Below are positions 31,676 to 49,184 of a stretch of DNA of 64,000 bases, in pieces (the stretch's first letter is position 1; every line of letters starts with the position of its first letter). Under the pieces are notes generated by a model, which saw nothing but the letters and a program-made list of their open reading frames with translations, was not told the DNA's origin and did no database searches. The stretch comes from Conexivisphaerales archaeon (lineage in GTDB: Archaea > Thermoproteota > Nitrososphaeria > Conexivisphaerales > DTJL01), in NCBI GenBank assembly GCA_038728585.1, contig JAVYTR010000004.1:1-64000 (forward strand). The letters run 5' to 3'. The translations under genes were made by a program, and so were the position numbers.

Positions 31676-32415
31676 GGTTCGAAGAGATAGTTGCTGGTCT
31701 GCCTGAAACGAAGCTTACATACTGGGAAGACCCTTACAGAAAAGAGGATAAGTCAAACCTTATAGCTGCAGCAAAGGAGGGCGGAAACTACTACGTGGTT
31801 CTCGACTCCACAATCTTCCATCCCAAAAGCGGTGGTCAGCCGAGCGATACTGGAACTCTGGCAAATGAGAAGTTTACTTTAAGTGTAAAGAAGGTCTTCA
31901 GGGTAGGCAATCATGTAGTACTTTTTGGCAAGGCGCAGGGAGAACCGAAACCAGACGAAGTGCTTCAAAGGATTGACTGGGAGAAGAGGTATCTATACAT
32001 GAGAAGGCATGCAGCAGCTCATCTTTTTGATGCTGCACTTGACAACGTCAGAGGAACTGCCTGCGACCCGGTTGATTCATGGCTTGGAGATGATTCTTAC
32101 GTTGGGTACAGGGGGAAGGCTGTTACACAAGACGAGATCAAAGCTATGATGGAGTTTGTGGAAGACTGCATAAGAAAAGACCTGAAGGTCACAAGCAGGA
32201 TAGTTGACAGGAGTGAAGTGAAGGAAGAAAGGTCTTTGTGGAGAAATGTTTTGGAGAGCCTTGAAAAGGTAAGGATAGTGCAGATAGACAACTTCAAGCC
32301 GATTCCTTGCGGAGGGACTCATGTGGATAGACTTGGCGAGATACGAAAGGTTGCTTTAAGGGATGTTAGACAGAATGATGATATATTCAGAATGTATTAC
32401 GATGTGGTTGACTAA
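31672..32415 (+). CDS. alaX: AlaX alanyl-tRNA editing protein
   Basis: 247 residues, AlaX-M/L size. The editing domain keeps its Zn ligands: RRHAAAHLF (HxxxH) and PCGGTHV (Cys, His), plus STIFHPKSGGQPSDTG. It hydrolyses Ser-tRNA(Ala) or Gly-tRNA(Ala) in trans. TTG start at 31672 overlaps the Nudix stop (TTGA), implying coupled translation. Convergent with an ion-permease gene by 4 bases. Confidence 0.93.
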   Translation: MRFEEIVAGLPETKLTYWEDPYRKEDKSNLIAAAKEGGNYYVVLDSTIFHPKSGGQPSDTGTLANEKFTLSVKKVFRVGNHVVLFGKAQGEPKPDEVLQRIDWEKRYLYMRRHAAAHLFDAALDNVRGTACDPVDSWLGDDSYVGYRGKAVTQDEIKAMMEFVEDCIRKDLKVTSRIVDRSEVKEERSLWRNVLESLEKVRIVQIDNFKPIPCGGTHVDRLGEIRKVALRDVRQNDDIFRMYYDVVD

Positions 32416-33683
32416 GCATGCAGTTCGAAGAAGACCAGTAGAAGAAGCAGTAAGGTGCAGATAGCAGTTAGAGGTATGCCCTTCTTTGCAAAAGCTACAT
32501 AAGAGAATCTGATTCCGTTTCTTTCTGCTTCGTTCGCCACTATCAGGTTGCTTGCAGCCCCCAGCAAAGTCAGAGCACCGGCTAGGGTACTAGATGCGGC
32601 AAAAGCACTCCAGTATATGGCTGAAAAGCTGCCTGTTGGAATCAGCGTCTTAAAGAGAGGGAGCAAGAGTGCAGTAAGAGGTACATTACTCAGAACCTGG
32701 CTCAGCAAGAGACTGCTAAGAGTTATAAATATCACCAGATTGCCACCGCTAACAAGGTTTAGGAATGGGTAGATGGCTGAAACCAGCCCTCCAGAATACA
32801 GCGCCTGTGTGAAGATAAAGAGGCCTGCGAACATAACAAGGATCTTCCAATCTGTCTTGACTATTATCTCCCTTCTTCTACTCGAAAGGAGAAGCAGGAG
32901 CAGCGCGCCTATGAGAGAGGCGTATGAGAGAGTAAAACTTGTGGAGATATGGAAAAGCTGAAGAGTATCGGATAGAAGCATAAGAGCTATCGCTGCCATA
33001 AGCGAAATTCTTGATATTCTTGAAAGCTTTTCATCTTTAATCACTTCGAGGTTTCTGACGTCTATCCTTTTGTGCTGGTTCTTGATATCCCTATACATGT
33101 ATATGGCAAGGAGCAGAAGAGAAACTAGGCTGAAGGGAAAGAGGTAGTATACAAACTGCAGCAGTGGAGCTTTTATCCCGCTTTCCGTAGCTATCAGCAT
33201 GTTCTGAGGATTACCCATAGGGGTCATGGCGCTTCCCAGTGTTACCGCGAAGGCTAACGTATAGAGCAGGGGAAGTGGATTTGCTCCTGTCTTCTTTGAA
33301 TAACTGAGCAGGATAGGTGTTCCCATGATTACCAGAGAATCGTTCATAATGACGCTTGATGCAAGACCTAGCCCTACAGAAAGCAACAAAGAAAGTTGAA
33401 ATGGTGATCTTGCCTTTTTTATCAACCAGTTTGAGAATGATTCAAGGTCGCCAGAGATCTCCAGCCCCTTGCTGATGGTGAACATTCCGAAGAGAAATAT
33501 CATCACTTGCGGGTCTATGCTAAGAACCGCCTGGAGAGGCCCTACAAGGCCTGTTGCAAGACAGAAGACTGAGCCTACGAGGAAGACTGCCCACATCGGC
33601 ACAATCAGGTTACCATTTCTTCTGAGCAGAAGAAGGGAGAGCACAAGCAAGAAAGCAAATAGCGACAGAAAAAACTGCAGCAT
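32412..33683 (-). CDS. ArsB/NhaD-type ion permease
   Basis: 423 residues with ~11 membrane segments in two repeats. Family features: FLFGMFTISKGLE, GLASSVIMNDSLVIMGTPILL (conserved NDS), AVTLGSAMTPMGNPQNMLI (GNPQN ion site), and in the second half QVLSNVPLTALLLP and LTLLGAASNLIVA. The superfamily includes arsenite exporters, Na+/H+ antiporters and carboxylate carriers; substrate unknown. No ars genes are nearby. Confidence 0.9.
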   Translation of the reverse strand: MLQFFLSLFAFLLVLSLLLLRRNGNLIVPMWAVFLVGSVFCLATGLVGPLQAVLSIDPQVMIFLFGMFTISKGLEISGDLESFSNWLIKKARSPFQLSLLLSVGLGLASSVIMNDSLVIMGTPILLSYSKKTGANPLPLLYTLAFAVTLGSAMTPMGNPQNMLIATESGIKAPLLQFVYYLFPFSLVSLLLLAIYMYRDIKNQHKRIDVRNLEVIKDEKLSRISRISLMAAIALMLLSDTLQLFHISTSFTLSYASLIGALLLLLLSSRRREIIVKTDWKILVMFAGLFIFTQALYSGGLVSAIYPFLNLVSGGNLVIFITLSSLLLSQVLSNVPLTALLLPLFKTLIPTGSFSAIYWSAFAASSTLAGALTLLGAASNLIVANEAERNGIRFSYVAFAKKGIPLTAICTLLLLLLVFFELHA

Positions 33684-34948: not shown

Positions 34949-35488
34949 TTGAACGAGGCAGAAAGATACCACGAACGAGAGAACTCACGCCTTACTGATG
35001 CGAGTTCTGAAGGAGGCGATTACTATGGAATCATGCTCAACAAAATGCAGTCAGATGAGCAGACGAAGGAAGACTCCTTATCTTTGCTTGTAGGGTTTGA
35101 TGGCTCGGAGCAGGCAAAAAGGGCACTTTTAGTGGGTTCGGACCTTGTAAGAGGTAACAGCAACTGTACCATCCACATAGCGTATGTGGTGCAGCCAACT
35201 GCTGGCCTACTTGAACCCTTAACTGATGAGTTCATGGTGTCTCTCAAGAAGAATGGCATGTCCATACTCTCATATGGAGAAAGTCTTGTAAAAAATCAGG
35301 GTGCAAGAATAGTAAAACATCTTGAGTGGGGAAATCCAAGCGAGGAGATGCTGAAACTGGCAGAAAAGTTACATCCTAGATTTGTCCTTTTGGGAACCAT
35401 AAAGCATTCTCCTACCGAGAGAGTCCTTGGAACGATCTCCTCCATTTTTCTGAGATCGCGACGTTTTAACCTGATCATAGTCCCATAG
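34949..35488 (+). CDS. universal stress protein (UspA) domain protein
   Basis: 179 residues; Usp fold from about residue 43 (SLSLLVGFDGSEQAKRALLVGSDLV). The C-terminal ATP-binding G-x2-G-x9-G(S/T) stretch is partly kept: FVLLGTIKHSPTERVLGTISSIFLRS. The ~40-residue N-terminal extension is polar. The start is TTG, ~27 bases after ACTTAAATTG, consistent with leaderless expression; a later ATG (MLNKMQ) is the alternative. The 3' end overlaps the convergent complex I-like gene by 14 bases. Confidence 0.82.
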   Translation: MNEAERYHERENSRLTDASSEGGDYYGIMLNKMQSDEQTKEDSLSLLVGFDGSEQAKRALLVGSDLVRGNSNCTIHIAYVVQPTAGLLEPLTDEFMVSLKKNGMSILSYGESLVKNQGARIVKHLEWGNPSEEMLKLAEKLHPRFVLLGTIKHSPTERVLGTISSIFLRSRRFNLIIVP

Positions 35489-37466
35489 ATAACACATAAT
35501 ACCCTAGAACGAATACCATAGCAATCAATATGTATGCCACGTACATTCCGAGGTTTCCCTGCATGATCTTGCTGCTTACGAAAGAGGAGACAACATTCCC
35601 CCACTTTGATAGTACGTCGTAAATCGGCTTGAATAGGTCGAATGTACTCAGATTTACAAGAATTCTTGAATCCTTCTCGTCACCATCTCCTACTTTCAGT
35701 TTACTCTCTTTTGTACGCAACAGGAATGAAAGCATCAATCTTATCGGAGAACTATATCCAAAAGAGTTATACCTATTAGGGGAATCTTCTTCGCCTTTTT
35801 CACCAGCATACCAACCTCTCGTCCTCCTTATCCTCCATCTGCCGCCATAACGCGATATCATTGCAGGTACCAGCAGGCAGCCCAAAAGAAACAGGGCAGT
35901 GAAGGTGGGAGAGAATCCACCAAACGGCTTCCCTGACAGAATCACAAAGTATGCTGGCACACCTAAAAGGCCTGTTGCAAAAACATTGAAGACGAAAGTG
36001 CCGACAACGGATTCGATTCCCTTTGCTGCTAGGTAGAGTGTTAAAGGTGCGGCTACCCCGAGAACAACTATTACAGATGATAACAATATAAGTGCAGCAT
36101 AAATTAATTTAGGCTGTGCAGTTTCTTCGCTGCTATTAGTCTGCACAAGAATACCAAATCCATACAGTTTTGTCATGGAAACCATGGTCATTCCTGTTGC
36201 TAGAGCAACTACAGCACCTATGAAGATGCAAATCAGTTGACTGATGATATCAGGGAAACGGAAGAATTGGAAGATTGATTCAAGTATCATCCACTCAGAT
36301 ACGAAACCAGCAATCGGAGGTGCGGCTTGAAGAGACAAGATAGCAAACATACCTATGATAGTCAATAGGGTATTCTTCTTATCGAAATGTGTCTGTTTGT
36401 TCAGGTCAAAGCTCCCTCTTAACTTCCCTGCCCAGCCTGATATAAGAAATAGAGACCCTTTCGATACGGAATGTGAGAATGAGTGAAACATCGCAGCCAA
36501 GAGAGAGAATGTAGCTAAAAGCATAAGATTGTAATATGATGAAAGAATGTAGATTCCAAAGGATACCAGAATGAGCCCGTTATTTTCGATCGTACTGTAC
36601 GCCGGTACTCCCTTTGAATGCTCTGAAACAGCCCCATACAGCGCACCGAACAATACTGGCAAAGCGCCTATCCCCAATGTTATCCATCCCCACCATAACT
36701 GGTAGTTTCGTAAGGTATATAGAACTTGGAAGATACCATAAACGCCCATCAATGTCAATGTTGATGATAGTAGAGCAGAGGAATTGGTGGGAGCTCTAGA
36801 ATGAGCCATGGGAAGCCACTCGACCATGTGAAAAGGAGCTATGCCCATCTTCATCGAGAAACCCAACAAAGCCAGCAGAAAGATAGAAGATGATTGAATC
36901 ATTGAAGTAATGCTTATCTGATCACCAAGGTAAAAAGAATGGGATGCTGCGAATATACCGGCGAACGACAGTGTTACAAGCAATGTGCTCAGCTCACCAA
37001 AAACCAGAAAAGTGTAAGCCGCCTGCCTCAGAGGACCTCTGTCTCCTTCCCCCTGCAGTATCATAAAGAATGAAGCAATTGTCATCGTTTCCCAAGAAGC
37101 GAGGAATGAGATTGAATCCATACTTAACATTATGAGGAACATTGACAGCATAGACAGTAATACCAGCAAAGAGAGTTTGTTCGAGTAGTCAGAATCATAA
37201 TCAAGAGAAAAAATACTGACAGAAAACCATACTATCGATGAGATCAACAAGAAATAGGAAGCCCGAACCGAAAGGCCAAGATGGAAGATACCTAGCTCGA
37301 CTAACGGTACAGACGAACCTGTTACCAGAACTGCAACAGATAGGACAAAAAGGAATAAGGCCGCGATCGAACCCATAAGATAAGAAGCTCTTTTCGAAAA
37401 AGCTGAAAGGATTATACCGACAACATAAGAGGAAAGTGCAATGAGTAATATAGGCAAAAGACTCAT
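35475..37466 (-). CDS. proton-pumping antiporter-like subunit (HyfB/NuoL-like) of an Ehr-type complex
   Basis: 663 residues, ~16 membrane segments. The Nuo/Mrp antiporter core includes FLASWETMTIASFFM (conserved Glu of TM5), MKMGIAPFHMVEWLPMAHSRAPTNSSALLS (Lys/His of the proton channel) and LLATFSLLAAMFHSFSHSVSKGSLFL. The C-terminal ~120 residues extend into an amphipathic region (STFDLFKPIYDVLSKWGN) and a last TM helix, as in HyfB. Last gene of the six-gene operon. Should move H+ or Na+ across the cytoplasmic membrane, driven by the redox arm. Confidence 0.88.
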   Translation of the reverse strand: MSLLPILLIALSSYVVGIILSAFSKRASYLMGSIAALFLFVLSVAVLVTGSSVPLVELGIFHLGLSVRASYFLLISSIVWFSVSIFSLDYDSDYSNKLSLLVLLSMLSMFLIMLSMDSISFLASWETMTIASFFMILQGEGDRGPLRQAAYTFLVFGELSTLLVTLSFAGIFAASHSFYLGDQISITSMIQSSSIFLLALLGFSMKMGIAPFHMVEWLPMAHSRAPTNSSALLSSTLTLMGVYGIFQVLYTLRNYQLWWGWITLGIGALPVLFGALYGAVSEHSKGVPAYSTIENNGLILVSFGIYILSSYYNLMLLATFSLLAAMFHSFSHSVSKGSLFLISGWAGKLRGSFDLNKQTHFDKKNTLLTIIGMFAILSLQAAPPIAGFVSEWMILESIFQFFRFPDIISQLICIFIGAVVALATGMTMVSMTKLYGFGILVQTNSSEETAQPKLIYAALILLSSVIVVLGVAAPLTLYLAAKGIESVVGTFVFNVFATGLLGVPAYFVILSGKPFGGFSPTFTALFLLGCLLVPAMISRYGGRWRIRRTRGWYAGEKGEEDSPNRYNSFGYSSPIRLMLSFLLRTKESKLKVGDGDEKDSRILVNLSTFDLFKPIYDVLSKWGNVVSSFVSSKIMQGNLGMYVAYILIAMVFVLGYYVLSMGL

Positions 37467-37475
37467 TGTCAGTGT

Positions 37476-38195
37476 TCACCTCTTTCTACCCATAGCTAAA
37501 AGTAGGCCTTGAATGAACTGGATTGGAGAAGGCGGACATCCTGGAATGAAAATGTCAACGGGTATTATCTCTTCGACAGGTGAGACAAAATTCGGCGAGT
37601 TTGCGAAAACACCACCGGATAACGCACATGCTCCTGCAGCTATCACGACCTTTGGTTCAGGCATACTCTCGTATGTCGTTACTATGTATTCTACCATCGA
37701 CCGGTTTGGAGCCCCCAGAACAAGTAGAGCGTCTGCATGCTTCGGAGAATTGGTGAACGTTATACCCAGCCTCGATACATCATAGAAGGGATTAGCCATG
37801 TTCAGAGCTTCGAGGTTACAGGCGTTGCATGAGCCGCTATCTATAATGAAGACATGAAGTGATTTTTTGAAGATCTTGGCCCTTTCTTCTGAGTAGATTT
37901 TGCTGTTTGCGACTGCATTCAATGCCTGCGAAATCTTTTCATCGTTTCGGTCGAATACGAAGCCTGCATCTGCACATTTTGCGCAGTAGATGCACCTGTT
38001 CATAATTATCTTCTTATTCTTGGTGTCTATTGCTCCAGTTGGGCATACCTTTTTACCCTCTCCCCAATCAGATTCCTGGCCGGGCTCTGGGGGGATGTTC
38101 GATAAAGGTATCTCATCCCTTGTGGGAATCTGTCTTGGAAACTTCGTCGTAGGAGAACCATTCTTCAAACCTTTAATCATCCAGAATTTTGGCAT
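37476..38195 (-). CDS. ferredoxin-domain + NuoB/HyfI-like Fe-S subunit
   Basis: 239 residues. The N-terminal part holds one ferredoxin-type [4Fe-4S] site (VCPTGAI plus NRCIYCAKC). The C-terminal part is NuoB/HyfI-like and keeps the N2-type cluster ligands: SGSCNACNLEALN, GACALSGG and IPGCPPSP. It therefore fuses HyfH-like and HyfI-like functions in a short polypeptide. It docks against the large subunit encoded just upstream. The retained clusters show the electron path is intact up to the site that has lost NiFe. Confidence 0.88.
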   Translation of the reverse strand: MPKFWMIKGLKNGSPTTKFPRQIPTRDEIPLSNIPPEPGQESDWGEGKKVCPTGAIDTKNKKIIMNRCIYCAKCADAGFVFDRNDEKISQALNAVANSKIYSEERAKIFKKSLHVFIIDSGSCNACNLEALNMANPFYDVSRLGITFTNSPKHADALLVLGAPNRSMVEYIVTTYESMPEPKVVIAAGACALSGGVFANSPNFVSPVEEIIPVDIFIPGCPPSPIQFIQGLLLAMGRKR

Positions 38196-38201
38196 GTTGT
38201 T

Positions 38202-39545
38202 TCACCTATCTGAATCTGCAAAGGAAAGACCAAACGATTCGTAGTTAAACTGGAAGTCTGTGAAGAGATTGTCCGTCATACTGATGGCAAAGGGAATAAA
38301 GTTGATTAATGAAGGCGGTCGAATATGGATGAAGGATATCCTACCATCTGCGTCAAGTTTCAACACGTGGACAAGGTCACCAGACGGGGATTCAATTCTG
38401 CTTAGGGCAACTGCTTCAGTCTTTCTCTCTCCAAAGATCTTTTTTCCTGTGCCTCTAGAGGGCATCCTGTCAAGCAATTCTTGGAGAACCACCTGGCTGG
38501 ATTGAATCTCGTTCAGCCTGACAAGCAGCCTAGCCAGAGCGTCACACCCTTTCTCTGTTTCTATAGGAACAAATATTTCATTGTAGGGACCAAATGGGAA
38601 AGTCAATCTGTCATCCAACTGTATTCCTGATCCCCTAGCGGTTGGCCCCACTGCGCCAAGTGTATATGCTACCTCCCTAGGCAGCTTTCCAGTTTCCTGC
38701 ATTCTGTCAAGAAACATTCTCGAAGAAAGAAAGTATTCTGTTAGAGAAGCTGCCTCCCTGCAGATGCTCTGGATCTGCTTTATCAGTTCTGACCTAGCCT
38801 TTCCTTGAAGGTCGACCCGTACGTCTGCTAGCCTGTTGAAACCGAAGAAATACCTATGGAAAAAGTACTTTGAGTTGAGTCTCAAACATCTTTCCTTAAG
38901 TGAATTGATCAGGTTTACAGCTACATTCTGAGATGCTGCTTCCGCCAACCTACCAAAGACATGAAGATGGTTGTAGATCCTCTCCATCTCTATGGCTACA
39001 GCCCTCACCCAATCTATGTAGGGTTCAACTTCGACGCCTAATAGCTGTTCGGCAGCCGTCAAGAAGCATGTCGAATATGATGCCGAAAAATTCCCAACCT
39101 CTCTCTCAATTAGCAGTGTAGAGTCCTCAACCGTATGTCCAAGGAGCATTTTCTCTATTCGCCTTGTCTTATATCCCAAAACAGGAATTGTATTGAGTAT
39201 CTTTTCCCCGTATGTATCAAGGATGAATTTTCCACTTTCCTGAATTCCCCAGCTGACAGGTCCATAATTAAATTTGAATAAACCGTAGCCATCCACTACG
39301 TTTTGCACGTCAAACTGGTAGGGTTTGTCATGGTCTGATCTTAAGAAGTCTATAAGAGCCAGCAACTGTCTTTCCGCTTTTGGTATACCTTCGGTTAGTA
39401 CGCTCTTGTGCTGAATGTTATCGTTCACCAGTGTGTAATCTTTCCCCTCCAAAGTGAAAGATGTAGCAAACTGAAAGTTATCGCCCAGATAGGCCACATC
39501 TTTCTGTAAGACCATCTTTTCAGGCTTCAAGTACATCGCTTTCAC
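38202..39545 (-). CDS. NuoCD/HyfG-like large subunit without NiFe ligands
   Basis: 447 residues. The N-terminal ~110 are NuoC-like; the remainder is hydrogenase large-subunit/NuoD-like (YGPVSWGIQESGKFIL, LGYKTRRIEKMLLGHT, YIDWVRAVAIEMERIYNHLH). Where HyfG has an N-terminal CxxC, this has LLIEREVGNFSASYSTC without a pair; where the C-terminal DPCxxC belongs it has YESFGLSFADSDR. The four-Cys NiFe site is absent, and the NuoD quinone-site His (YxHRG) is Thr (YKTRR). Neither hydrogenase nor ordinary quinone chemistry is expected, matching Ehr complexes. Confidence 0.87.
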   Translation of the reverse strand: MKAMYLKPEKMVLQKDVAYLGDNFQFATSFTLEGKDYTLVNDNIQHKSVLTEGIPKAERQLLALIDFLRSDHDKPYQFDVQNVVDGYGLFKFNYGPVSWGIQESGKFILDTYGEKILNTIPVLGYKTRRIEKMLLGHTVEDSTLLIEREVGNFSASYSTCFLTAAEQLLGVEVEPYIDWVRAVAIEMERIYNHLHVFGRLAEAASQNVAVNLINSLKERCLRLNSKYFFHRYFFGFNRLADVRVDLQGKARSELIKQIQSICREAASLTEYFLSSRMFLDRMQETGKLPREVAYTLGAVGPTARGSGIQLDDRLTFPFGPYNEIFVPIETEKGCDALARLLVRLNEIQSSQVVLQELLDRMPSRGTGKKIFGERKTEAVALSRIESPSGDLVHVLKLDADGRISFIHIRPPSLINFIPFAISMTDNLFTDFQFNYESFGLSFADSDR

Positions 39546-40951
39546 CCCAAGAATGGAGATACAAGGACCCCGACTGTTATGATCCCCAATATCATTGACA
39601 GTATCAGATTGACGGCTGGGACAATCACCGAAGACGCTTCCTCCTTCACAAACTCAAGATTTGAGCTTTGTTGCCCCATACCAAAGACGATCAAAACCGC
39701 AAGTCTGTTTAGGTTTACGAAGGTTAATAGTATAGACACAAAAAGCAGTGCTGCCACAAGGTAATATTCAGTCTGGATTGCTGCTATGATTATGAGAAAC
39801 TCACCTATGAAAACACCAAACGGTGGAGCCCCTGAGACCGCCAAACATGAAAGTAGAAAGATATAGCCTGAATACCTTAACTTGGTCGCAACCCCCGATA
39901 CTTCGGATATTTTCTTTGAATTCAAGTTCACTAATATGTTTCCAGCCGCGTAAAATGCTGCCGATTTGGCAAGAGCGTGAGATATAATCTGCACAATAGA
40001 ACCCACCAGACCTATTCCTCCAAGAGCCAGCCCAGTCAGAATTATACCCATGTTCTCCATAGAAGAATATGCAAGCATTCTTTTGTAGTTCCGCTGGCTC
40101 CCAATAATAAGAGAGGCCAGAAGCGCGGTCAGAACTCCGATTCCTATGCTGAAGTCTCTCGCTACATGAAAGTAAGCAGTATCGTTGATGATACTAAGGT
40201 TTCTGTATACAGCATAAAGTGCTGTAGGCAGAAGTATCCCCGAAAACATGGCACTTATGGGTGAAGGGGCCTCGCTGTGGGCATCAGGCAGCCAGGTATG
40301 CACAGGCGCTATGCCTGCTTTCGTACCATACCCGACTACAGCCAAACCGGAAGCTAGGGCCAAGACGGCAGGGTTGGAGACATGAGTCGAAAGCAGCGTT
40401 GATAGAACAAGAGTCTGCTCAGCGTAGTAAATGAACAAGACAGATATAAGTGAGGCGACTAGCCCTGCAGATACTATGATTGTATATCTCCAGGCAGCTT
40501 CTATGCTAGTCTTCTCTTTTTCCAAGGCTACAAGGAGCGCACTGGTTACTGTTGTAGCTTCTATTCCTATCCATAGGAGACCGACATTGTTCACTAATAC
40601 TGAGAACAGCATAGTAAATACGAATAGGTTTAAGAGCGAATAGTACCATCTGAATCTTATCAGAGGTTCCTTTATTCTTTTAATGTAGAAGGACGAATAG
40701 ATTGAAGAAGTCAGGTAAACCATTGATATTGTCAAAAGTATGAATTTCGTTGTTGTGTCTACAAAGAATAATCCACTTTTAAGAGTTACACCTGAAAAGA
40801 TCAATAATGCGGAGAGAAATAGGTCTGTGAGGGAAGCTACCAGTGCAGCAATGTAACCTGTTCTCTTCATTCCAAAAAGCGAGATTACTGACGCTGCTGC
40901 TGGTGCAACTAGAAAGGTTACAATGAGGTCAAAGAACAACATGAAGCTCAA
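39542..40951 (-). CDS. antiporter-like membrane subunit (HyfF/NuoN-like)
   Basis: 469 residues, ~14 membrane segments. Proton-channel residues are retained: LLWIGIEATTVTSALLV (TM5 Glu), VVGYGTKAGIAPVHTWLPDAHSEAPSPISAMFSG (TM7 Lys, His), and KRMLAYSSMENMGIIL. The start overlaps the stop of the gene upstream and the stop overlaps the large subunit start, giving tight coupling. Second antiporter-like subunit, so the complex could translocate at least two ions per cycle. Confidence 0.9.
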   Translation of the reverse strand: MSFMLFFDLIVTFLVAPAAASVISLFGMKRTGYIAALVASLTDLFLSALLIFSGVTLKSGLFFVDTTTKFILLTISMVYLTSSIYSSFYIKRIKEPLIRFRWYYSLLNLFVFTMLFSVLVNNVGLLWIGIEATTVTSALLVALEKEKTSIEAAWRYTIIVSAGLVASLISVLFIYYAEQTLVLSTLLSTHVSNPAVLALASGLAVVGYGTKAGIAPVHTWLPDAHSEAPSPISAMFSGILLPTALYAVYRNLSIINDTAYFHVARDFSIGIGVLTALLASLIIGSQRNYKRMLAYSSMENMGIILTGLALGGIGLVGSIVQIISHALAKSAAFYAAGNILVNLNSKKISEVSGVATKLRYSGYIFLLSCLAVSGAPPFGVFIGEFLIIIAAIQTEYYLVAALLFVSILLTFVNLNRLAVLIVFGMGQQSSNLEFVKEEASSVIVPAVNLILSMILGIITVGVLVSPFLG

Positions 40952-41595
40952 CCCTTTAATTCTTCAAGGTCAGGTGACTCCAGCGTCTTGAGAGCTCCCC
41001 TGACATCTGATAGTATTACCCCAACCAATATGACACCAAGGATATCAAGCACTACAGCGAATTCTATCAAAAGTGGTAGCGTGGGTGATAACAAGCCTCC
41101 TAAGTAAAGTACGGCGTTTTCTTCCTCGAGAAACCCTGCAAGCTGCATAAGGGCGTTCCTTCTTGTAATTATCAACAAGAGCCCTAGAAACACAATCGCT
41201 AAAGGTACAACCATAAGCTGGTTTTTGAAGAGAGGAAGTATTGTACTGCTGAAGAGCACGTAAGCAAGGAATATTATGATAACACCAAGTATTACAAATG
41301 ATGGATTTTTTCTGGCATTCTCTCTCAGACTATACTTAAAGCGACGAACCTGGTACAGCATAACCCAAGGTATGATGATGCCCCTTGCAACAAGTGTAAT
41401 TACAGCAACATAAATCAGCGTGAAGTCTGAATATGAAAGATAGAGGAGTGCGAAGGCTCCTGCCAAAACAAAAGATTGAATTGATACCGCCCGGATTGTA
41501 GGATCAACAAATGTCTGGCTTTGAAGATAGAGCGACGTTATTACAAGCAGTATACCCATAAAAGCAGAGGCACTGCTAGTGGGGTCTGTAAGCAT
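40948..41595 (-). CDS. HyfE-like membrane subunit (NuoK-related)
   Basis: 215 residues, ~6-7 membrane segments. HyfE pattern: SDFTLIYVAVITLVARGIIIPWVML in the middle and GFLEEENAVLYLGGL with a buried Glu pair, then PLLIEFAVVLDILGVILV. AAGGTGAT lies upstream of the ATG as a ribosome-binding site. Bridges the HyfC-like and antiporter subunits. Confidence 0.86.
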   Translation of the reverse strand: MLTDPTSSASAFMGILLVITSLYLQSQTFVDPTIRAVSIQSFVLAGAFALLYLSYSDFTLIYVAVITLVARGIIIPWVMLYQVRRFKYSLRENARKNPSFVILGVIIIFLAYVLFSSTILPLFKNQLMVVPLAIVFLGLLLIITRRNALMQLAGFLEEENAVLYLGGLLSPTLPLLIEFAVVLDILGVILVGVILSDVRGALKTLESPDLEELKG

Positions 41596-41604
41596 ACTTG
41601 TGTA

Positions 41605-42567
41605 TCACCTTGAAAGAGAAAAAGCGACAACCGAGAGAAGCCCAAGACTGAAGGATATGGCCAAGAAATCCAAGATCTTAAACAGCCTCAACTTTGAGAA
41701 TGTTTCTTCAACAACAACCACTATAGTGACTACAAACAAGAGCTTTAGCATTAATGTTCCTACGGAAATAAAAGCACCCAAAATCCCGCTATTGCCAAAA
41801 ATACCCCAAGGTAAAATAAAAACGTTGACAAAAACTGACATCAACATGAACTGCTTCATGTAGCTTCCCCATTTTGACAACGCAAGAAGCTTACCAGAGT
41901 ATTCCATAATCTTAGCATCATCCAGCATACCCAGCTCCATGAGACCAGAGCTTTCAACTGGTAGCTTACCAGTCTCTGTCAGAAGCAGCATGAAAAAGGC
42001 CACAGTAACCAAAATGTGAGTGGGAGAGATGTAAGTTTCGAGAGAACTTGACAGCAGATTGTTAGTAACATACGGATTGTTTGTTCCTGTGATTAAAGCG
42101 ACCGCAATGAAAACCATTATTAAAGTGGGCTCGGCAAAAGCTGTAAATGTAATACTTCTGCTTGCACCCATTAGCGAATAATGAGTACCAGCGTCAATTG
42201 CTGCTATTATTCCCATTATGCCAGCAAAACCGAACATGAGCGCCCCGCCCAAAAAGTCTAAAAGTATACCGTAAGGCAGCGGATACGGAGTTATTATTGG
42301 TATGACTAGAGAGATGACGACGTAGGCACTGAAGGAAGCTAAGGGCGCTAATACGAAAAGAGAAGAAGATTTGGCTGGTATGAGAATTTCCTTCTTTAAG
42401 AGCTTTGTAATATCATAGTATGGCTGCAAAATAGGAGGACCTTTTCTTGATTCTATAATTCCTTTGAATCTATTAATCAGACCTTGTACTATAGGGGAAA
42501 GGGAAATTACGGTAGCTACCTGCAGCAGGTTGATTGCTTGAATTTCGATAAGAGAGGTCATCGACAT
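41605..42567 (-). CDS. HyfC/NuoH-like membrane subunit
   Basis: 320 residues, 8 membrane segments. It anchors the redox arm. Family motifs: IIESRKGPPILQPYYDITKLLKKE (shown here as its two halves, SRKGPPILQPYYD and ITKLLKKE), SFTAFAEPTL-like SITFTAFAEPTLIM, LPVESSGLMELGMLDDAKIM and EYSGKLLALSKWGS. First gene of the operon. Two upstream elements could control it: a CAAATAAAC box near 42606 with an inverted repeat at 42586-42600, and the palindrome/TATA pair at 42701-42724. Confidence 0.9.
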   Translation of the reverse strand: MSMTSLIEIQAINLLQVATVISLSPIVQGLINRFKGIIESRKGPPILQPYYDITKLLKKEILIPAKSSSLFVLAPLASFSAYVVISLVIPIITPYPLPYGILLDFLGGALMFGFAGIMGIIAAIDAGTHYSLMGASRSITFTAFAEPTLIMVFIAVALITGTNNPYVTNNLLSSSLETYISPTHILVTVAFFMLLLTETGKLPVESSGLMELGMLDDAKIMEYSGKLLALSKWGSYMKQFMLMSVFVNVFILPWGIFGNSGILGAFISVGTLMLKLLFVVTIVVVVEETFSKLRLFKILDFLAISFSLGLLSVVAFSLSR

Positions 42568-42734: not shown

Positions 42735-43277
42735 CTACCTGTTGACCTTCTCGGGTTCAGCTCTTTCAGCGAACTGCGCCAGCATTGCCCTGCATTCCAA
42801 CAACTTTTTCTCCACCTTGTCTGCGTCTTCTTTTCTCGTCATTCCTTGTCCAAGCACATTCTTATACCATCTCTCAAGACTCTCCAGGCCCTCTTCAAGC
42901 TCGTCGGTCTCTTCTGGAGTTACGTTTCCGGACTCCATGTTTTGATTCACTTCTGTCAAGAACTCCTGACATTCTTCGTAGATCTCATCCAACTGTTTGC
43001 TCCTGTCATCTTCGAATACATGAATTAGCTTTCTTAGGTCATCCTCAGTTTTACACCTTGCTTTGAAAGCTATAATTGTTCCAAGGTTTCCGAACTCCTT
43101 CTTTACCTGCGAGATGATGGAATCTGCGTTCTTGTTGTCAGAAACAATGCAAATTGATACGGACGGATAGACAGCACCGAGCTTTTTGAAAATCCTCCAA
43201 GCACGAACCCTTATTTTAGATGGCTCGTTTGGCAGGTCGTACATTACTATCGCCCATTCCTTATTATGATTGTTCAT
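42735..43277 (-). CDS. ChrB N-terminal-domain-like protein
   Basis: 180 residues from ATG 43277 (an ATG at 43310 would add 11). The first ~90 match the ChrB N-terminal domain: KEWAIVMYDLPNEPSKIRVRAWRIFKKLGAVYPSVSICIV, here seen as KEWAIVMYDLPNEPSK and RVRAWRIFKKLGAVYPSV. This is a ferredoxin-like fold related to PaaX C-domains. The rest is a long Glu-rich helical tail. ChrB relatives take part in chromate or oxidative stress regulation. Site B lies in its promoter, so it may autoregulate. No chromate transporter is present. Confidence 0.78.
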   Translation of the reverse strand: MNNHNKEWAIVMYDLPNEPSKIRVRAWRIFKKLGAVYPSVSICIVSDNKNADSIISQVKKEFGNLGTIIAFKARCKTEDDLRKLIHVFEDDRSKQLDEIYEECQEFLTEVNQNMESGNVTPEETDELEEGLESLERWYKNVLGQGMTRKEDADKVEKKLLECRAMLAQFAERAEPEKVNR

Positions 43278-43374
43278 GTCGGACCGTTGACTTCTGTCAA
43301 AAAATATCATTAGGTAATAACCTTACCGGTTTCTTCTTACATGTATAGCAGATTAATTTGAATTCATAGCCAAG

Positions 43375-43621: not shown

Positions 43622-45169
43622 TTGTTTAGTAGTGTTCTCTTTAGGTCAGACTTACATCAAAGAGTACCGCATAAAGTCGATGAAGAAACTTTGGCAAACC
43701 TAAACCTCGATAAGGTTTTCGAATGGGTGACGTTACCGAAACATGAGTACAACATAAAAAAGTTCTTCATGGACCATCTCGAGTCAGAGGAACAGATATA
43801 CTACAGGCAAAAGATTTTTCAGGATCTAAAAGATTGTCATCTGAAGGAGAGCGTTGAGCAGTTTTGTAAGAGTATGCTTGATATGCAAAGGGGAATTCAA
43901 CGGAAAGATAAACTATATTCAGAATTGCAGAAGATCGGATACCATTTGGACTTGGTGCTAGCTTACTGTAAATCAGTTCAGGAATTCGCCGAATCATTGA
44001 GGAAAGCAATGTTAAGATCTGAAGGGATGAATGAATTCAGGGAATACCTTATTGATTACGTCAAGTCTGACCAATTTAGGTCTATGCACCATGAGGCTGA
44101 ACGCTTGAAGAAAAACCTAACAACACTAACTTACTGCATTAGGTTACAAGGACTAAAGGTAACTGTAAAGAAATATGAGCAAGAGATCGATTACAGAGAC
44201 GAGATAGCAGAGTTATTTGCAATATTTCGCAATGCAAACCCAAAGGATTTTAGTATAAAATTCCACGATATTATCGAGATGAATCATGTGGAATCTCAAA
44301 TACTGGAATTTGTTAGTAAGATTTACGAACAAACCTTTCTGGAACTCAAATCCTTCTATGACCGTACAATCAATTTTATAGACCAAACACTAGACAGGTT
44401 TTGTATAGAGATACAGTTTTACATTTCTTATCTTACATTTATAGGAACTATTGAAGACCTTGGTCTAGAGTTTTGTTACCCACGCATAGTCAGACCTGGT
44501 GAACGTATTTTGGCAAAGGAAGCCTTTGACATAGCCTTGGCGTACAAACTCTCAAAAGAGCGTATAAAGCCAGTAAAGAACGATTTTGAACTGGATGAAA
44601 AAGAGCGAGTGATAGTTGTCACAGGACCCAATCAGGGAGGAAAGTCGACCTTTGCGAGGATGTTCGGACAGCTGCATTACTTGGCATGTATCGGTTGCCC
44701 CGTCCCTGCAAGAGAAGCAAGTCTACTTCTTTATGACCATCTTTATTCACATTTTGAGAAAGAAGAACTGACCGAAAACCTTAGGGGTAAGTTACATGAT
44801 GATCTGCTGCGTTTACATGAGATTCTGCATAACGCTACATCCAGTAGTGTAATAATAATGAACGAAACGTTTTCAAGTGCCACACTTGAGGATTCGAGGT
44901 TTCTAGGTAGAAAGATACTAGAAAAGATACTGGCAATCGGAGCTGTATGCGTCTATGTTACTTTCATATATGATCTTTCGAAACTTTCACCCTGCATAGT
45001 CAGCATGGTGGCAGTGGTTGATAGTTCAGACCCCACTGTTAGGACCTACAAGATCATCAGAAAGGAGGCTGACGGCAAGGCATATGCTATAATGATAGCA
45101 AAGAAGTACGGGCTGACATACGACGAGATAAGGAGGCGGTTAAACTATGCAAGTATTCTTGATGCATAA
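43622..45169 (+). CDS. MutS-related ATPase, first of a tandem pair
   Basis: 515 residues from TTG 43622. The start FSSVLFRSDLHQR and LNLDKVFEWVT fit the N-terminus of a bacterial MutS-like subfamily found as gene pairs. Central helical lever/clamp region, then the ATPase domain: Walker A VTGPNQGGKST (~335-343), Walker B SSVIIMNETFSSAT (Asn414-Glu415 where MutS has Asp-Glu), and a C-terminal switch region. The mismatch-binding domain I is absent, so it is not a canonical mismatch sensor. Overlaps the second ATPase gene by 23 bases, implying a heterodimer. Confidence 0.82.
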   Translation: MFSSVLFRSDLHQRVPHKVDEETLANLNLDKVFEWVTLPKHEYNIKKFFMDHLESEEQIYYRQKIFQDLKDCHLKESVEQFCKSMLDMQRGIQRKDKLYSELQKIGYHLDLVLAYCKSVQEFAESLRKAMLRSEGMNEFREYLIDYVKSDQFRSMHHEAERLKKNLTTLTYCIRLQGLKVTVKKYEQEIDYRDEIAELFAIFRNANPKDFSIKFHDIIEMNHVESQILEFVSKIYEQTFLELKSFYDRTINFIDQTLDRFCIEIQFYISYLTFIGTIEDLGLEFCYPRIVRPGERILAKEAFDIALAYKLSKERIKPVKNDFELDEKERVIVVTGPNQGGKSTFARMFGQLHYLACIGCPVPAREASLLLYDHLYSHFEKEELTENLRGKLHDDLLRLHEILHNATSSSVIIMNETFSSATLEDSRFLGRKILEKILAIGAVCVYVTFIYDLSKLSPCIVSMVAVVDSSDPTVRTYKIIRKEADGKAYAIMIAKKYGLTYDEIRRRLNYASILDA

Positions 45170-46667
45170 AGATAGGGATTTTGACCTGAATATCCTTCCA
45201 GAAAACGCAGAAGAATTGGTTACGGACCTTGGAATGGAAGGTCTAATTGGCGTCATGTCCTCTGGGGATAAATTCATCGCAACAGTCGTCAAAACGGCAC
45301 TCCTCCAGAACCTCACAAGCGTGGACACGATAAAGTACAGACAGGATATTCTTTTAGATTTTTTAGACAAACCAGGAATTTTGAAGTCAATCTACTTGTT
45401 GGCTACAAACGCATTGGAAGAAGAAAGAAAAAACTGGTTCTTCCTGATAACGAGCCCATCGCCGGACCTTCTTCTCTACAGGTCGGTCGCTATTATCGAG
45501 ATGTTCTCGAGGTATCTCAGAGATTTAAGAGATCTGCTTGTTGCGAATGATCCGAACTTCAAATCCGAGGGATTAAAAGGGCTTGTTTCCAGGTTAGTGA
45601 ATAAATTAACAGATAACTATTTTGAAATGCTAAGGGAAAAGCTAAGAGAACTAAAGTTTGAAGATGGAATGCTGTTCTCTGTAAGGTTGGGTGAAGCGTT
45701 AAAGGGAACAGATTACACGCTGAGGAAGCAGATTAACAGAAAGAAAAATTGGCGCTTTCTAAGAAGGTCTAAAGACGAATTCAGTTTTGAAATCGCAGAC
45801 AGAGACGAAGCAGGAGCCGATGCGCTTGCGCAACTGAGGGAAAGGGCAGTAAATGATGTTGCAAATCTTCTAGCTCAATCTGCTGAAACGTTGCATAATT
45901 TCTTCACTTCACTTAAAGCAGAAACCGGTTTTTACATAGGTTGCCTGAACCTCGTTGATTATATGAAAGAAAAGAATCTACAATATTGCTTTCCATCACC
46001 TCTTAAAGGTGGGTTTTGGCTTTCCGCAAGCTCTCTCTATGATATCTCGTTAGCGATAAACGGCAATAGACAGATTGTGCCAAACGATATACAAGCTGAT
46101 GGTAAAAGAATGATAGTTATAACTGGAGCCAACGAAGGAGGTAAATCAACGTTCTTGAAGAGCATCGGCATGGCGTTCATTATGATGCAGTGCGGCATGG
46201 TAGTCTGTGCCAAGAGCTTCAAAGCAACTATCTGCGAAGGGCTATTCACTCATTTCAGAAAGAAAGAAGACCAGAATATGCAGAGTGGAAAGCTTGAGGA
46301 AGAACTGATCAGACTGAACAAGATTGTAGCTAATCTTAAGCCTTCTTCAATAATTCTGATGAACGAATCCCTAGCATCGACGAACGAACATGAAGGTTCC
46401 GAAATTGCCATGCAGGTGACGGAAGCATTGGTAGAAGGAGGCGTAAGGGTCTTTTTCGTTACCCATTTGTATGACTTCGCCGCAAGAGTCAAATCAAAGC
46501 TCAATGGTCTGGTACTGTTTCTGAAGGCGGAGAGGCTAGAAGACGGGACAAGAACGTTTAGAATAATAGAAGGGGAACCTCTTGCAACAAGTTTTGGAAG
46601 GGATTTATACAAACAGATCTTCGAAGATAAAGCACAAGAAGCTTTTTTGGAGAACCAGGTCAAATAA
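45147..46667 (+). CDS. MutS-related ATPase, second of a tandem pair
   Basis: 506 residues beginning MQVFLMHKDRDFDL, typical for the second member of the pair. Walker A VITGANEGGKST (~326-334), Walker B SSIILMNESLASTNEHEG (Asn406-Glu407 again replacing Asp-Glu), and VFFVTHLYDFAARV as the following strand/His switch. No domain I or nuclease domain. The conserved D-to-N change in both partners suggests a subfamily property rather than decay. Confidence 0.82.
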   Translation: MQVFLMHKDRDFDLNILPENAEELVTDLGMEGLIGVMSSGDKFIATVVKTALLQNLTSVDTIKYRQDILLDFLDKPGILKSIYLLATNALEEERKNWFFLITSPSPDLLLYRSVAIIEMFSRYLRDLRDLLVANDPNFKSEGLKGLVSRLVNKLTDNYFEMLREKLRELKFEDGMLFSVRLGEALKGTDYTLRKQINRKKNWRFLRRSKDEFSFEIADRDEAGADALAQLRERAVNDVANLLAQSAETLHNFFTSLKAETGFYIGCLNLVDYMKEKNLQYCFPSPLKGGFWLSASSLYDISLAINGNRQIVPNDIQADGKRMIVITGANEGGKSTFLKSIGMAFIMMQCGMVVCAKSFKATICEGLFTHFRKKEDQNMQSGKLEEELIRLNKIVANLKPSSIILMNESLASTNEHEGSEIAMQVTEALVEGGVRVFFVTHLYDFAARVKSKLNGLVLFLKAERLEDGTRTFRIIEGEPLATSFGRDLYKQIFEDKAQEAFLENQVK

Positions 46668-46942: not shown

Positions 46943-47383
46943 CTAGATCAATCTCTTCACATCAAGAATCACACGCACAAGATAATCGTCGGGTCTGAAT
47001 TGGATGTTGTTAGGGTCGATAAATGCCCAATCGATAGCTTCCCTGGTGGAATGAACTTCAGTGTTTTCACCTACGAATGAATAATAGCAGATTATGACAA
47101 TGTGCGTAATTACTCCCTTTATTGATTTGAAATCTTCATACACGCCAAGAAGAGACAGGTCATCGATGTCAACACCTACTTCCTCTTTTACTTCTCTTCT
47201 AGCTGCTTCGGCCAGCGTTTCGTTCTTGTTAGGATAACCTTGGGGAAGTACCCATTGAGCGTGGTATGGTTCATCCTCTTCCTTGATCACAAGAAGCTTC
47301 CTGTTCCGTATAAGAGCTACAGAGACCAGCACAACAAGGTTTGGGTCTGAGAATTCATTACGTCTGAGGTTATGCATCTTCAT
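46943..47383 (-). CDS. Nudix hydrolase
   Basis: 146 residues. Complete Nudix box, in two pieces GYPNKNETLAEAARRE and VKEEVGV; strand PYHAQWVLPQ precedes it. The substrate (NTP clean-up, ADP-ribose or NADH) is not predictable. It follows the metallophosphoesterase gene by 48 bases on the same strand and probably shares its promoter with site C. Confidence 0.87.
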   Translation of the reverse strand: MKMHNLRRNEFSDPNLVVLVSVALIRNRKLLVIKEEDEPYHAQWVLPQGYPNKNETLAEAARREVKEEVGVDIDDLSLLGVYEDFKSIKGVITHIVIICYYSFVGENTEVHSTREAIDWAFIDPNNIQFRPDDYLVRVILDVKRLI

Positions 47384-47431: not shown

Positions 47432-48115
47432 TTACGAAACATAGCCGATAAAAATGTATGTCTTCTCATCAGCAGAGAGTCTACTCTTCAGGCCATGAAG
47501 CATCCTCTCTATGTCATACCGAAACCTATGAAGACGCGCTTCTCTCTTGGCAGTGTCTAGAATAGTGCATGATGCCTTAGAATTTCCATCCCTAGGGATT
47601 CCAACGCTGCACGCGTTGATTATCCACTTTTTACCTTCTTTGGCCTCATAAGGTATATGAGCATCTCCCAGTAGGATCAAGTCCTCCTGACCTGTGGGGA
47701 TCGACACTGCTTCTTCTTTGCTTAAGTACCCATAAAGCTCATCATCTGGCGAAGCATGTACTCCATATATTTTTATACCGTCATATTCGATATTCAGATG
47801 CCTTTCTGCCTTGCCAAGCAGACCCAGCACTTCTCTGGGCATGTATTGTAAAGTTATGAGCCTCTTGGTCAGCATCGAAGCTTCATGCGTACAAGGGCTA
47901 CTCCTGCAGTCCGTACCGAAGGATGCTGCGAAGTCATGGTTTCCTAGAACCCTCTTGGTATCTAACTGTTGCAGTACTCGCCAGACTTCATACTGACAAG
48001 GCCCAAAGTCGACTAGATCGCCAAGAAACATGACTTCTTCAGAGCTTGTGCTGTTAAAGACCTTTTGCAAGGCGTATATATTAGAGTGTATACCAGATAT
48101 AATGAATGGCTTCAA
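47432..48115 (-). CDS. calcineurin-like metallophosphoesterase, altered metal site
   Basis: 227 residues. Motifs: GDLVDFGP, VLGNHDFAAS, YGVHASP and LLGDAHIP are intact. The first motif, normally SDxHGN, reads SGIHSN: the metal-binding Asp8 is Gly and HGN is HSN. This would weaken one metal site, so activity is doubtful or unusual. TTG start at 48115 lies 27-28 bases from the minus-strand CTTATAATC box, consistent with leaderless expression from site C. Confidence 0.85.
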   Translation of the reverse strand: MKPFIISGIHSNIYALQKVFNSTSSEEVMFLGDLVDFGPCQYEVWRVLQQLDTKRVLGNHDFAASFGTDCRSSPCTHEASMLTKRLITLQYMPREVLGLLGKAERHLNIEYDGIKIYGVHASPDDELYGYLSKEEAVSIPTGQEDLILLGDAHIPYEAKEGKKWIINACSVGIPRDGNSKASCTILDTAKREARLHRFRYDIERMLHGLKSRLSADEKTYIFIGYVS

Positions 48116-48262: not shown

Positions 48263-48634
48263 TTACCTCTTATGATATTTTTCGAACAGTTCTTCCTCTT
48301 TTCGAATGTATTCTTCGTCATACTTGAGGCCAAGCACTTTACAGAGTGTCTTCTTCTCTGCTTCAAGACCGAGGATCGCAATAGCATAACTACCACAAGT
48401 TCGATATAACTCGTAATATTTGAAGGTTAAAGATGCGACTTTCGAAGATAATGGTGCATGCAGTGACATGAGTTGGGAGTGTTCTCTGTTAAGATTTTGA
48501 ATTTCACTATCAAGATCATGAAGCTGTGTTTCATTACAATCCTCAAGTGCGGCCTTTACAAGGTCCCCTGGCTTCACGTTAAGCCTTTTGGCGAGAGTAT
48601 TAATTTTCTCTGCCTGACTTCTCGAAAATCTCAA
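48263..48634 (-). CDS. small helical protein, fluoride-riboswitch operon gene 2
   Basis: 123 residues from TTG 48634. N-terminal FSRSQAEKINTLAKRLNVKP resembles a small HTH/RHH-type helical start; the remainder is a likely coiled coil (SEIQNLNREHSQLMSLHA) and a Lys/Glu-rich tail. No membrane segment. It follows the 94-residue gene by 21 bases and so lies under the same riboswitch. No recognised family. Confidence 0.6.
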   Translation of the reverse strand: MRFSRSQAEKINTLAKRLNVKPGDLVKAALEDCNETQLHDLDSEIQNLNREHSQLMSLHAPLSSKVASLTFKYYELYRTCGSYAIAILGLEAEKKTLCKVLGLKYDEEYIRKEEELFEKYHKR

Positions 48635-48655
48635 TCTTGACCAACCAACACATGT

Positions 48656-48940
48656 TTAGCTCTTCTTAGATAAAGAAAGCGATTCTCTCAGCCTTCTGTT
48701 ATCATCCTCCAGCTCTTCGATCCTCTTAATCATCCAGTTGTAATCATCTTCTGCTTCTTTTATCATACTGGTAAGCCTCTGGTAAGTTGATTCAATCCTT
48801 GGAAGGTCTGCTTTAAGGAAATCCACTCGGCTCTTGAGTTGAGTCAACTCCAAATTTTTAGCGTAACATTCTATCTTATGCATCAATTGGTCTGGTGTTA
48901 GATTTTTGTTCCTGTTCAAAAAGTTAGGCAGTTTAAACAA
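48656..48940 (-). CDS. small coiled-coil protein, fluoride-riboswitch operon gene 1
   Basis: 94 residues from TTG 48940, the only in-frame start after a TAG 18 bases upstream. A short basic head (KLPNFLNRNKNLTPDQ) is followed by continuous heptad-like helix (LTQLKSRVDFLKADLPRI, MIKRIEELEDDNRRLRESL). No membrane segments, so not Fluc/CrcB or CLC-F. AGGAG lies 12 bases before the TTG, just after the riboswitch expression platform. An alternative tiny frame (48933-48995, ATG start, 20 codons) overlaps its start. Confidence 0.6.
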   Translation of the reverse strand: MFKLPNFLNRNKNLTPDQLMHKIECYAKNLELTQLKSRVDFLKADLPRIESTYQRLTSMIKEAEDDYNWMIKRIEELEDDNRRLRESLSLSKKS

Positions 48941-48950
48941 TATGGAACCA

Positions 48951-48981
48951 CTCTCCTAAGTGTCCAAACCTACTTCCTACT
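48951..48981 (-). promoter_or_regulatory. predicted expression platform of the fluoride riboswitch
   Basis: Minus-strand AGTAGGA (48975-48981) is complementary to aptamer TCCTACT (49026-49032), and GGTTTGGACA (48961-48970) to aptamer TGTCCAAACC (49053-49062); the Shine-Dalgarno-like AGGAG (48953-48957) follows. Forming these helices would break the aptamer, suggesting a switch. Confidence 0.6.
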
Positions 48982-49023
48982 AGTTCTTCCTTCATCCACG
49001 GACCTTCCTCTCCTTTGCGCAGC

Positions 49024-49088
49024 AGAGTAGGATTCATCAGCTCCGGAGGAGCGGTTTGGACATCAGGTCCGGGCGGAATCCATCGCCT
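49024..49088 (-). ncRNA. fluoride riboswitch aptamer (crcB motif)
   Basis: Minus strand shows all consensus blocks in order: GGCGATGG, ATTCCGCC, an inserted hairpin GGAC-CTGAT-GTCC, AAACCGCTCC-TCC-GGAGC, TGATGAATCCTAC. Stems: P1 GGATTC/GAATCC (49076-49081 with 49030-49035), P3 GCTCC/GGAGC (49040-49052), pseudoknot GGCG/CGCC (49084-49087 with 49072-49075). The minus-strand box GAATAAATACC (49108-49118) would start transcription at about 49088, placing the aptamer at the very 5' end of the RNA. Confidence 0.9.
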
Positions 49089-49184
49089 AAGCTTCAGATG
49101 ATGCTAAGGTATTTATTCTTTGCTTGACTTGGCAGACGATGCAATGCCGGAAGAAAGTTACCCCATGATAAAGTGGTGTCATGA

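Follow-up and report, generated by a model that had tools for sequence, protein, structure and literature searches.

The window, i.e. the whole stretch of 64,000 nucleotides that was analysed, carries on its minus strand a fluoride riboswitch aptamer followed directly by two small genes, here called P1 and P2. Beyond them lie, among other genes, those of two MutS-like ATPases and an operon resembling complex I and formate hydrogenlyase (FHL). The features of the region are summarized in Table 1. P2 starts 21 nt after P1, which is the first gene of the predicted riboswitch transcript, and the gap and a TATA-like sequence preceding the phosphoesterase gene at 48115 suggest that this transcript ends after P2.

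Table 1. Coordinates of the features distinguished in the region, with the basis of each assignment.
Feature	Position	Strand	Basis or remark
TATA-like promoter element AATAAATA	49110..49117	-	22-29 nt upstream of the first aptamer base
Fluoride riboswitch aptamer RF01734	49021..49096, core 49026-49088	-	cmscan, genome-wide uniqueness, pairing
Pseudoknot 5′ strand GGAUU	49077..49081	-	pairs with 49030-49034
Aptamer segment TGTCCAAACC	49053..49062	-	perfect 10-nt pairing potential with 48961-48970 (anti-aptamer helix)
Pseudoknot 3′ strand AAUCC	49030..49034	-	pairs with 49077-49081
Second possible anti-aptamer strand AGTAGGA	48975..48981	-	complementary to TCCTACT, 49026-49032
Anti-aptamer strand GGTTTGGACA, proposed expression platform	48961..48970	-	just upstream of the ribosome-binding site
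Possible Shine-Dalgarno sequence AGGAGAG	48951..48957	-	before P1 start; predicted accessibility
P1, 94 aa, predicted single long helix/coiled coil	48656..48940	-	TTG-start ORF, homologues in three other family genomes, AlphaFold2
P2, 123 aa, probable ribbon-helix-helix N-terminus and helical coiled-coil region	48263..48634	-	TTG-start ORF, family profile
Calcineurin-like metallophosphoesterase	47432..48115	-	PF12850; 147 nt after P2, probably own promoter, outside operon
NUDIX hydrolase	46943..47383	-	PF00293
Two adjacent MutS-like ATPases	43622..46667	+	MutS_V
ChrB N-terminal-domain protein	42735-43310		PF20229
Six-gene complex-I/formate-hydrogenlyase-like operon	35475..42567	-	Pfam
Universal stress protein	34949..35488	+	PF00582

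The covariance-model search proposed in the first-pass annotation returned a match to the full RF01734 model (positions 1-64) with a score of 42.3 bits (E 2.3e-8 over the window; cmscan, Rfam 15), above the gathering score of 34 bits and within a few bases of the crcB element that had been placed at 49024-49088. In the minus-strand RNA both the P1 stem (49084-49087/49072-49075) and the P2 stem (49048-49052/49040-49044) form, and all nine pairs of the P1 stem and the pseudoknot are present. Across the class, these P1-stem and pseudoknot pairs are kept in 54-55 of 55 aptamers despite several pair types, and the variable pairs exceed every shuffle. The aptamer is the only one in the 1.93-Mb genome (99.6% complete). 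We consider a chance or non-functional look-alike very improbable, because the runner-up in the genome (E ≤ 5) reaches only 13.9 bits and the aptamer is conserved in the family. The element is thus confirmed, as far as its sequence goes, as a genuine aptamer of the RF01734 class, with fluoride binding as its predicted property.

The placement of the aptamer at the 5′ end of an RNA, also predicted at first pass, is supported by the upstream TATA-like element. Its positions are invariant in all four family genomes and the aptamer core is near-invariant in the same leader alignment; its distance from the aptamer predicts a transcript start at or next to the latter. With P1 and P2 directly downstream on the same strand, the aptamer occupies, at sequence level, the position of a 5′ leader.

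Potential for an expression platform was found between the aptamer and P1. The 10-nt pairing of TGTCCAAACC with GGTTTGGACA is the longest leader-aptamer complementarity, a length reached by 5 of 1000 shuffled sequences, and the helix is present in the minimum-energy fold. Leader-aptamer complementarity beyond that of shuffles was detected in this genome (p 0.005) and in the relatives G016 (p 0.036) and G023 (p 0.002), whose pairings are comparable, yet different; the leader of G026 showed no significant anti-aptamer pairing in this comparison. The second strand, AGTAGGA, would pair with a segment overlapping the pseudoknot strand and would nest inside the 10-nt helix. Over the whole class, the pseudoknot 3′ strand can pair with the next 80 nt over 6.24 nt on average, compared with 4.71 nt in shuffles (19 of 55 leaders at p ≤ 0.05); for the AGTAGGA/TCCTACT pair in this copy alone the complementarity is not significant (p = 0.225). 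The putative Shine-Dalgarno sequence is mostly paired in the predicted ligand-free fold and partly freed once the aptamer helices are imposed, a change that is clear solely in this leader. As a whole, the leader is not unusually stable relative to shuffles (z -1.7). Anti-aptamer pairing in the leader is therefore moderately supported, and it points to a translational ON switch operating by strand exchange, a direction and mechanism that we infer from the predicted folds.

A 20-codon ORF (48933-48995, minus strand), preceded by a purine-rich stretch, overlaps the start codon of P1 as well as both strands of the anti-aptamer type and could encode a leader peptide. No counterpart was seen by eye in the leaders of the relatives.

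P1 and P2 are real genes, as judged from their homologues in all three other family genomes, and the family profile of P2 retrieves its members with E values of 1e-56 to 1e-62 in four genomes. The description of the two products as small, soluble coiled-coil proteins was borne out, the ORFs being conserved and the AlphaFold2 models helical. P1 is modelled as one 78-residue helix (residues 16-93, pLDDT 90), and P2 as an all-helical protein in which two short N-terminal helices are followed by long ones (pLDDT 73.5, pTM 0.26). In Pfam scans P1 gave only generic coiled-coil matches below the cut-off and P2 nothing usable, and a sequence search of the PDB yielded no clear relative of either protein. 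The profile searches suggested at first pass thus found family and distant homologues, but no Pfam family above cut-off. In line with the earlier view, the proteins are not exporters, and the pattern is the same in all four family genomes.

The N-terminus of P2 resembles ribbon-helix-helix (RHH) proteins. A short N-terminal stretch is followed by predicted helices at residues 5-18 and 22-34, the best Foldseek matches are CopG, PutA-RHH, NikA and Arc-type structures (TM 0.5-0.7 by target length, all E > 1), and the family profile lists CopG chains in the PDB at E 0.1. For this N-terminus the profile also matches small archaeal ORFs that are themselves RHH_1/CcdA-like. With the RHH_1 profile, the best family member scored 12.8 bits against a cut-off of 20.5, and P2 of this genome gave no match. 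An RHH fold is our best guess for this part of P2, moderately supported by the models and profiles; with Foldseek E values above 1 and no RHH_1 match in this P2, DNA binding is predicted rather than established.

The order aptamer, P1, P2 was found in all four available family genomes, which represent three genera and share about 30-50% P1/P2 protein identity; the arrangement must accordingly be old and maintained, and the link of the aptamer to P1-P2 is well supported. Named metagenome-assembled genomes (MAGs) of the family are DRTY1_bin.15 (Nitrososphaeria archaeon), Centralia_MAG_53 (Thaumarchaeota archaeon) and YF1.bin89 (archaeon). In a wider contig search the single P2 sequence gave no match and the alignment retrieved only three MAGs of the family; no match was found on viral contigs. 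In G016 and G023 the two genes overlap by ATGA, which suggests coupled translation and a common complex. The aptamer preceding them is the sole one in each of these two genomes, and close orthologues of the FHL-like and MutS-like genes were not found there, which makes P1-P2 the most constant fluoride-sensing output of the family. The aptamer of G026, where the gene pair was read from its ORFs, scores 32.7 bits, just under the cut-off, and has one pseudoknot mismatch. In that genome P1-P2 is followed by an ORF that by eye resembles a tubulin/FtsZ-like GTPase (L054:1470-2663).

The CRCB domain (PF02537) had no match in this genome and none above the cut-off in 20 genomes of the order. One weak match in G016 (21.3 bits) was rejected, as it contains two internal stops. 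Fluoride-type CLC-F proteins carry a selectivity motif of the GREGT type; the single CLC of this genome (G000:C1) reads GLDGPSV, has no aptamer and, by this motif, does not appear to be of the fluoride type. Since in other families of the class the aptamer commonly stands before CrcB-like genes, none of which passes the cut-off in the 20 genomes of this order, the aptamer could be a relic that once drove an exporter since lost, with P1-P2 placed behind it by accident. We regard this as improbable: the linkage has persisted in four of four genomes over large divergence, the TATA element is conserved, and a compensatory U-A to G-C change in the pseudoknot of G016 argues against a decaying element. 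The loss of an exporter proposed at first pass is likewise not supported as a recent event, given that no CrcB passed the cut-off in 20 genomes of the order and that the linkage spans three genera.

Of 300 genomes sampled from the class, 71 carry fluoride aptamers. Read from the ORFs by eye, the genes that usually follow them are crcB accompanied by a DUF190-like gene, that of a 368-aa Na+/H+ antiporter-like protein, genes of FHL-like complexes, pairs of MutS-like ATPases and others. It had been assumed that known targets are exporters or fluoride-sensitive enzymes, a statement that is too narrow. RNAs of the crcB motif upstream of mutS and formate hydrogen lyase genes have been known since 2010 (Weinberg et al. 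2010, PMC2864571), Na+/H+ antiporters and HAD phosphatases are among the targets reviewed in PMC11139923, and the FRM fluoride-resistance operon of Enterobacter cloacae, ppaC-uspA-eno-gpmA-crcB, includes a universal stress protein (PMC5533749). Our literature search found no report of fluoride riboswitches with coiled-coil targets or in Nitrososphaeria.

The first-pass annotation had named homologues lacking the aptamer as a result that would speak against its proposal, and such homologues exist. A phylum-wide profile search revealed P2 homologues in two genomes of another class, G319 (E 5e-9) and G340 (E 8e-8). Outside the family, an independent P1 profile matches best the gene just before each of them (E 1e-5 and 3e-4, respectively), so the P1-P2 pair is homologous as a unit. 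Neither pair has a fluoride aptamer. Other matches of the P2 profile were confined to the RHH-like N-terminus or to segments of other proteins, and we did not count them as P2 homologues. The aptamer-free loci (L113:2000-2817 and L114:611-1417) adjoin a transaldolase-like gene, and that of G319 (L113) also a GH127-like/arabinofuranosidase-like gene, both identified by eye.

It follows that the pair is not intrinsically fluoride-specific and, judging from these genomes, that it predates or is independent of fluoride control. Fluoride control within the family stands, but the idea of a dedicated fluoride protein is weakened. A wholly new fluoride component is no more than possible, since non-exporter targets are already known and P1-P2 also occurs without an aptamer. 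The neighbours of the aptamer-free pair would suit another reading, in which P1-P2 is a general regulatory module that the family placed under fluoride control, its targets including an unrecognised exporter elsewhere in the genome. Candidate anion transporters do occur, namely the CLC mentioned above and a CitMHS-type protein (32412-33683). We consider this reading unlikely, as any regulatory link to a transporter is hypothetical and the homology of the distant pair rests on helical proteins (P2 E 2e-9, P1 E 1e-5).

Several neighbours of P1-P2 belong to gene types that are aptamer-linked in related genomes. In four genomes of the order, a pair orthologous to the MutS-like ATPases comes immediately after a fluoride aptamer, and so do homologues of the FHL-like genes in G026, G032, G086 and G185; G032 has one aptamer before its MutS-like pair and another before its FHL-like operon. 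The universal stress protein gene abuts the FHL-like operon, an arrangement also seen in the fluoride islands of G086 and G185, and a NUDIX homologue lies beside the aptamer in G026 too. Permissive searches of the region (E ≤ 3) and the genome (E ≤ 5) found no second, weak aptamer before the FHL-like or MutS-like genes of the window. That typical aptamer targets lack an aptamer of their own here makes a relay through P1-P2 an attractive proposal; comparison of the neighbouring promoters with that of P1 revealed no convincing shared inverted repeat or operator motif.

The ChrB_N gene occupies the slot before the FHL-like operon in which other genomes have a fluoride aptamer, and its product may have replaced the riboswitch as regulator. 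The 49-kDa-like subunit of the operon (38202-39545) has no CxxC motif, which makes a [NiFe] hydrogenase unlikely; from its sequence, the fluoride-associated FHL-like complex is more likely an ion-pumping relative of complex I, and the name "formate hydrogenlyase" given to fluoride-riboswitch targets may in many cases be wrong. Two Nitrosopumilaceae-like genomes (family guessed) contain islands with 6 and 8 fluoride aptamers in about 20 kb (G086:C37:52000-76000, L032+L033, and G185:C57:25000-49000, L034+L035, respectively), an unusually dense riboswitch regulon. By eye, these aptamers precede genes for TFB-like general transcription factors, for an MFS-like transporter and for a TIR-like protein, as well as a six-gene FHL-like operon and others, and the islands adjoin enolase-like, universal-stress-like and DUF190-like genes.

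The MutS-like ATPases lie 1.6 kb from P1-P2 and belong to the riboswitch targets of the order, P1 is no more than a coiled coil, and the RHH assignment of P2 is only moderate. The switch could thus control a structural or protein partner, such as a scaffold, a factor that protects enzymes or a partner in DNA repair related to the MutS-like proteins, instead of a DNA-binding regulator. We hold this to be possible, though second to a regulatory role: G016, G023 and G026 keep P1-P2 without a close MutS-like pair, and the N-terminus of P2 scores best against RHH proteins.

We therefore favour, with a probability of about 0.45, a fluoride-ON switch for an RHH/coiled-coil P1-P2 complex that is most likely an accessory regulatory, DNA-binding component. 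The riboswitch would form the 5′ end of a two-gene mRNA. Without fluoride, the strand at 48961-48970, and perhaps that at 48975-48981, would invade the aptamer and contribute to hiding the ribosome-binding region; once fluoride is present, formation of the pseudoknotted aptamer would block the anti-aptamer helix, and P1-P2 would be made. The two proteins would most likely join in one complex through their coiled coils, with P2 supplying an RHH DNA-binding end, and play an accessory role in fluoride stress, of a regulatory or chromatin type. The complex may relay the signal to genes without their own aptamer, e.g. the neighbouring block of stress-protein, FHL-like and MutS-like genes. The switching direction, complex formation, DNA binding and target genes are all inferred, as is the function of P1-P2. 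TFB-like ORFs seen by eye behind fluoride aptamers in G185 and G086 provide a precedent for a relay from riboswitch to transcription factor. More tentatively, such a relay might be family-wide, with CrcB-less archaea answering fluoride through DNA-binding P1-P2 and reprogramming the stress island.

Defence against fluoride is mostly pictured as export and replacement of the enzymes that it inhibits. The present case is a whole archaeal family, known so far only from metagenome-assembled genomes, that has no CrcB and has kept the switch on two proteins of neither type. In this family without a recognisable CrcB, what fluoride switches on is probably not a pump. Should P1-P2 contribute to tolerance, they would be a new component of fluoride defence or a riboswitch-controlled regulator of the fluoride response; the gene pair is a small, directly testable system.

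Several known systems share parts of this arrangement. The mutS and formate hydrogen lyase gene types found behind crcB-motif RNAs by Weinberg et al. 2010 (PMC2864571) are also present in the region, and their orthologues are aptamer-linked in related genomes, but here only P1-P2, and neither of these, stands behind an aptamer. The E. cloacae FRM operon (PMC5533749) similarly gathers stress genes, including one for a universal stress protein, in an island with a fluoride riboswitch; the present locus is archaeal and has no exporter or fluoride-inhibited enzyme under the switch. P2 shares with CopG-type RHH proteins (PF01402) the predicted layout of residues 1-34, its top Foldseek matches and a listing of CopG in the profile search, but differs in lacking a Pfam match above cut-off, in its long helical C-terminal part and in its coiled-coil partner P1. 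The aptamer itself conforms to RF01734 riboswitches in its full-length match above the gathering score, stems, pseudoknot and 5′-leader position. Its targets, in contrast to exporter, antiporter, enolase, mutS and formate-hydrogenlyase genes, are two unannotated helical proteins, and near the start codon an anti-aptamer helix, rather than an intrinsic terminator, is predicted as its expression platform.
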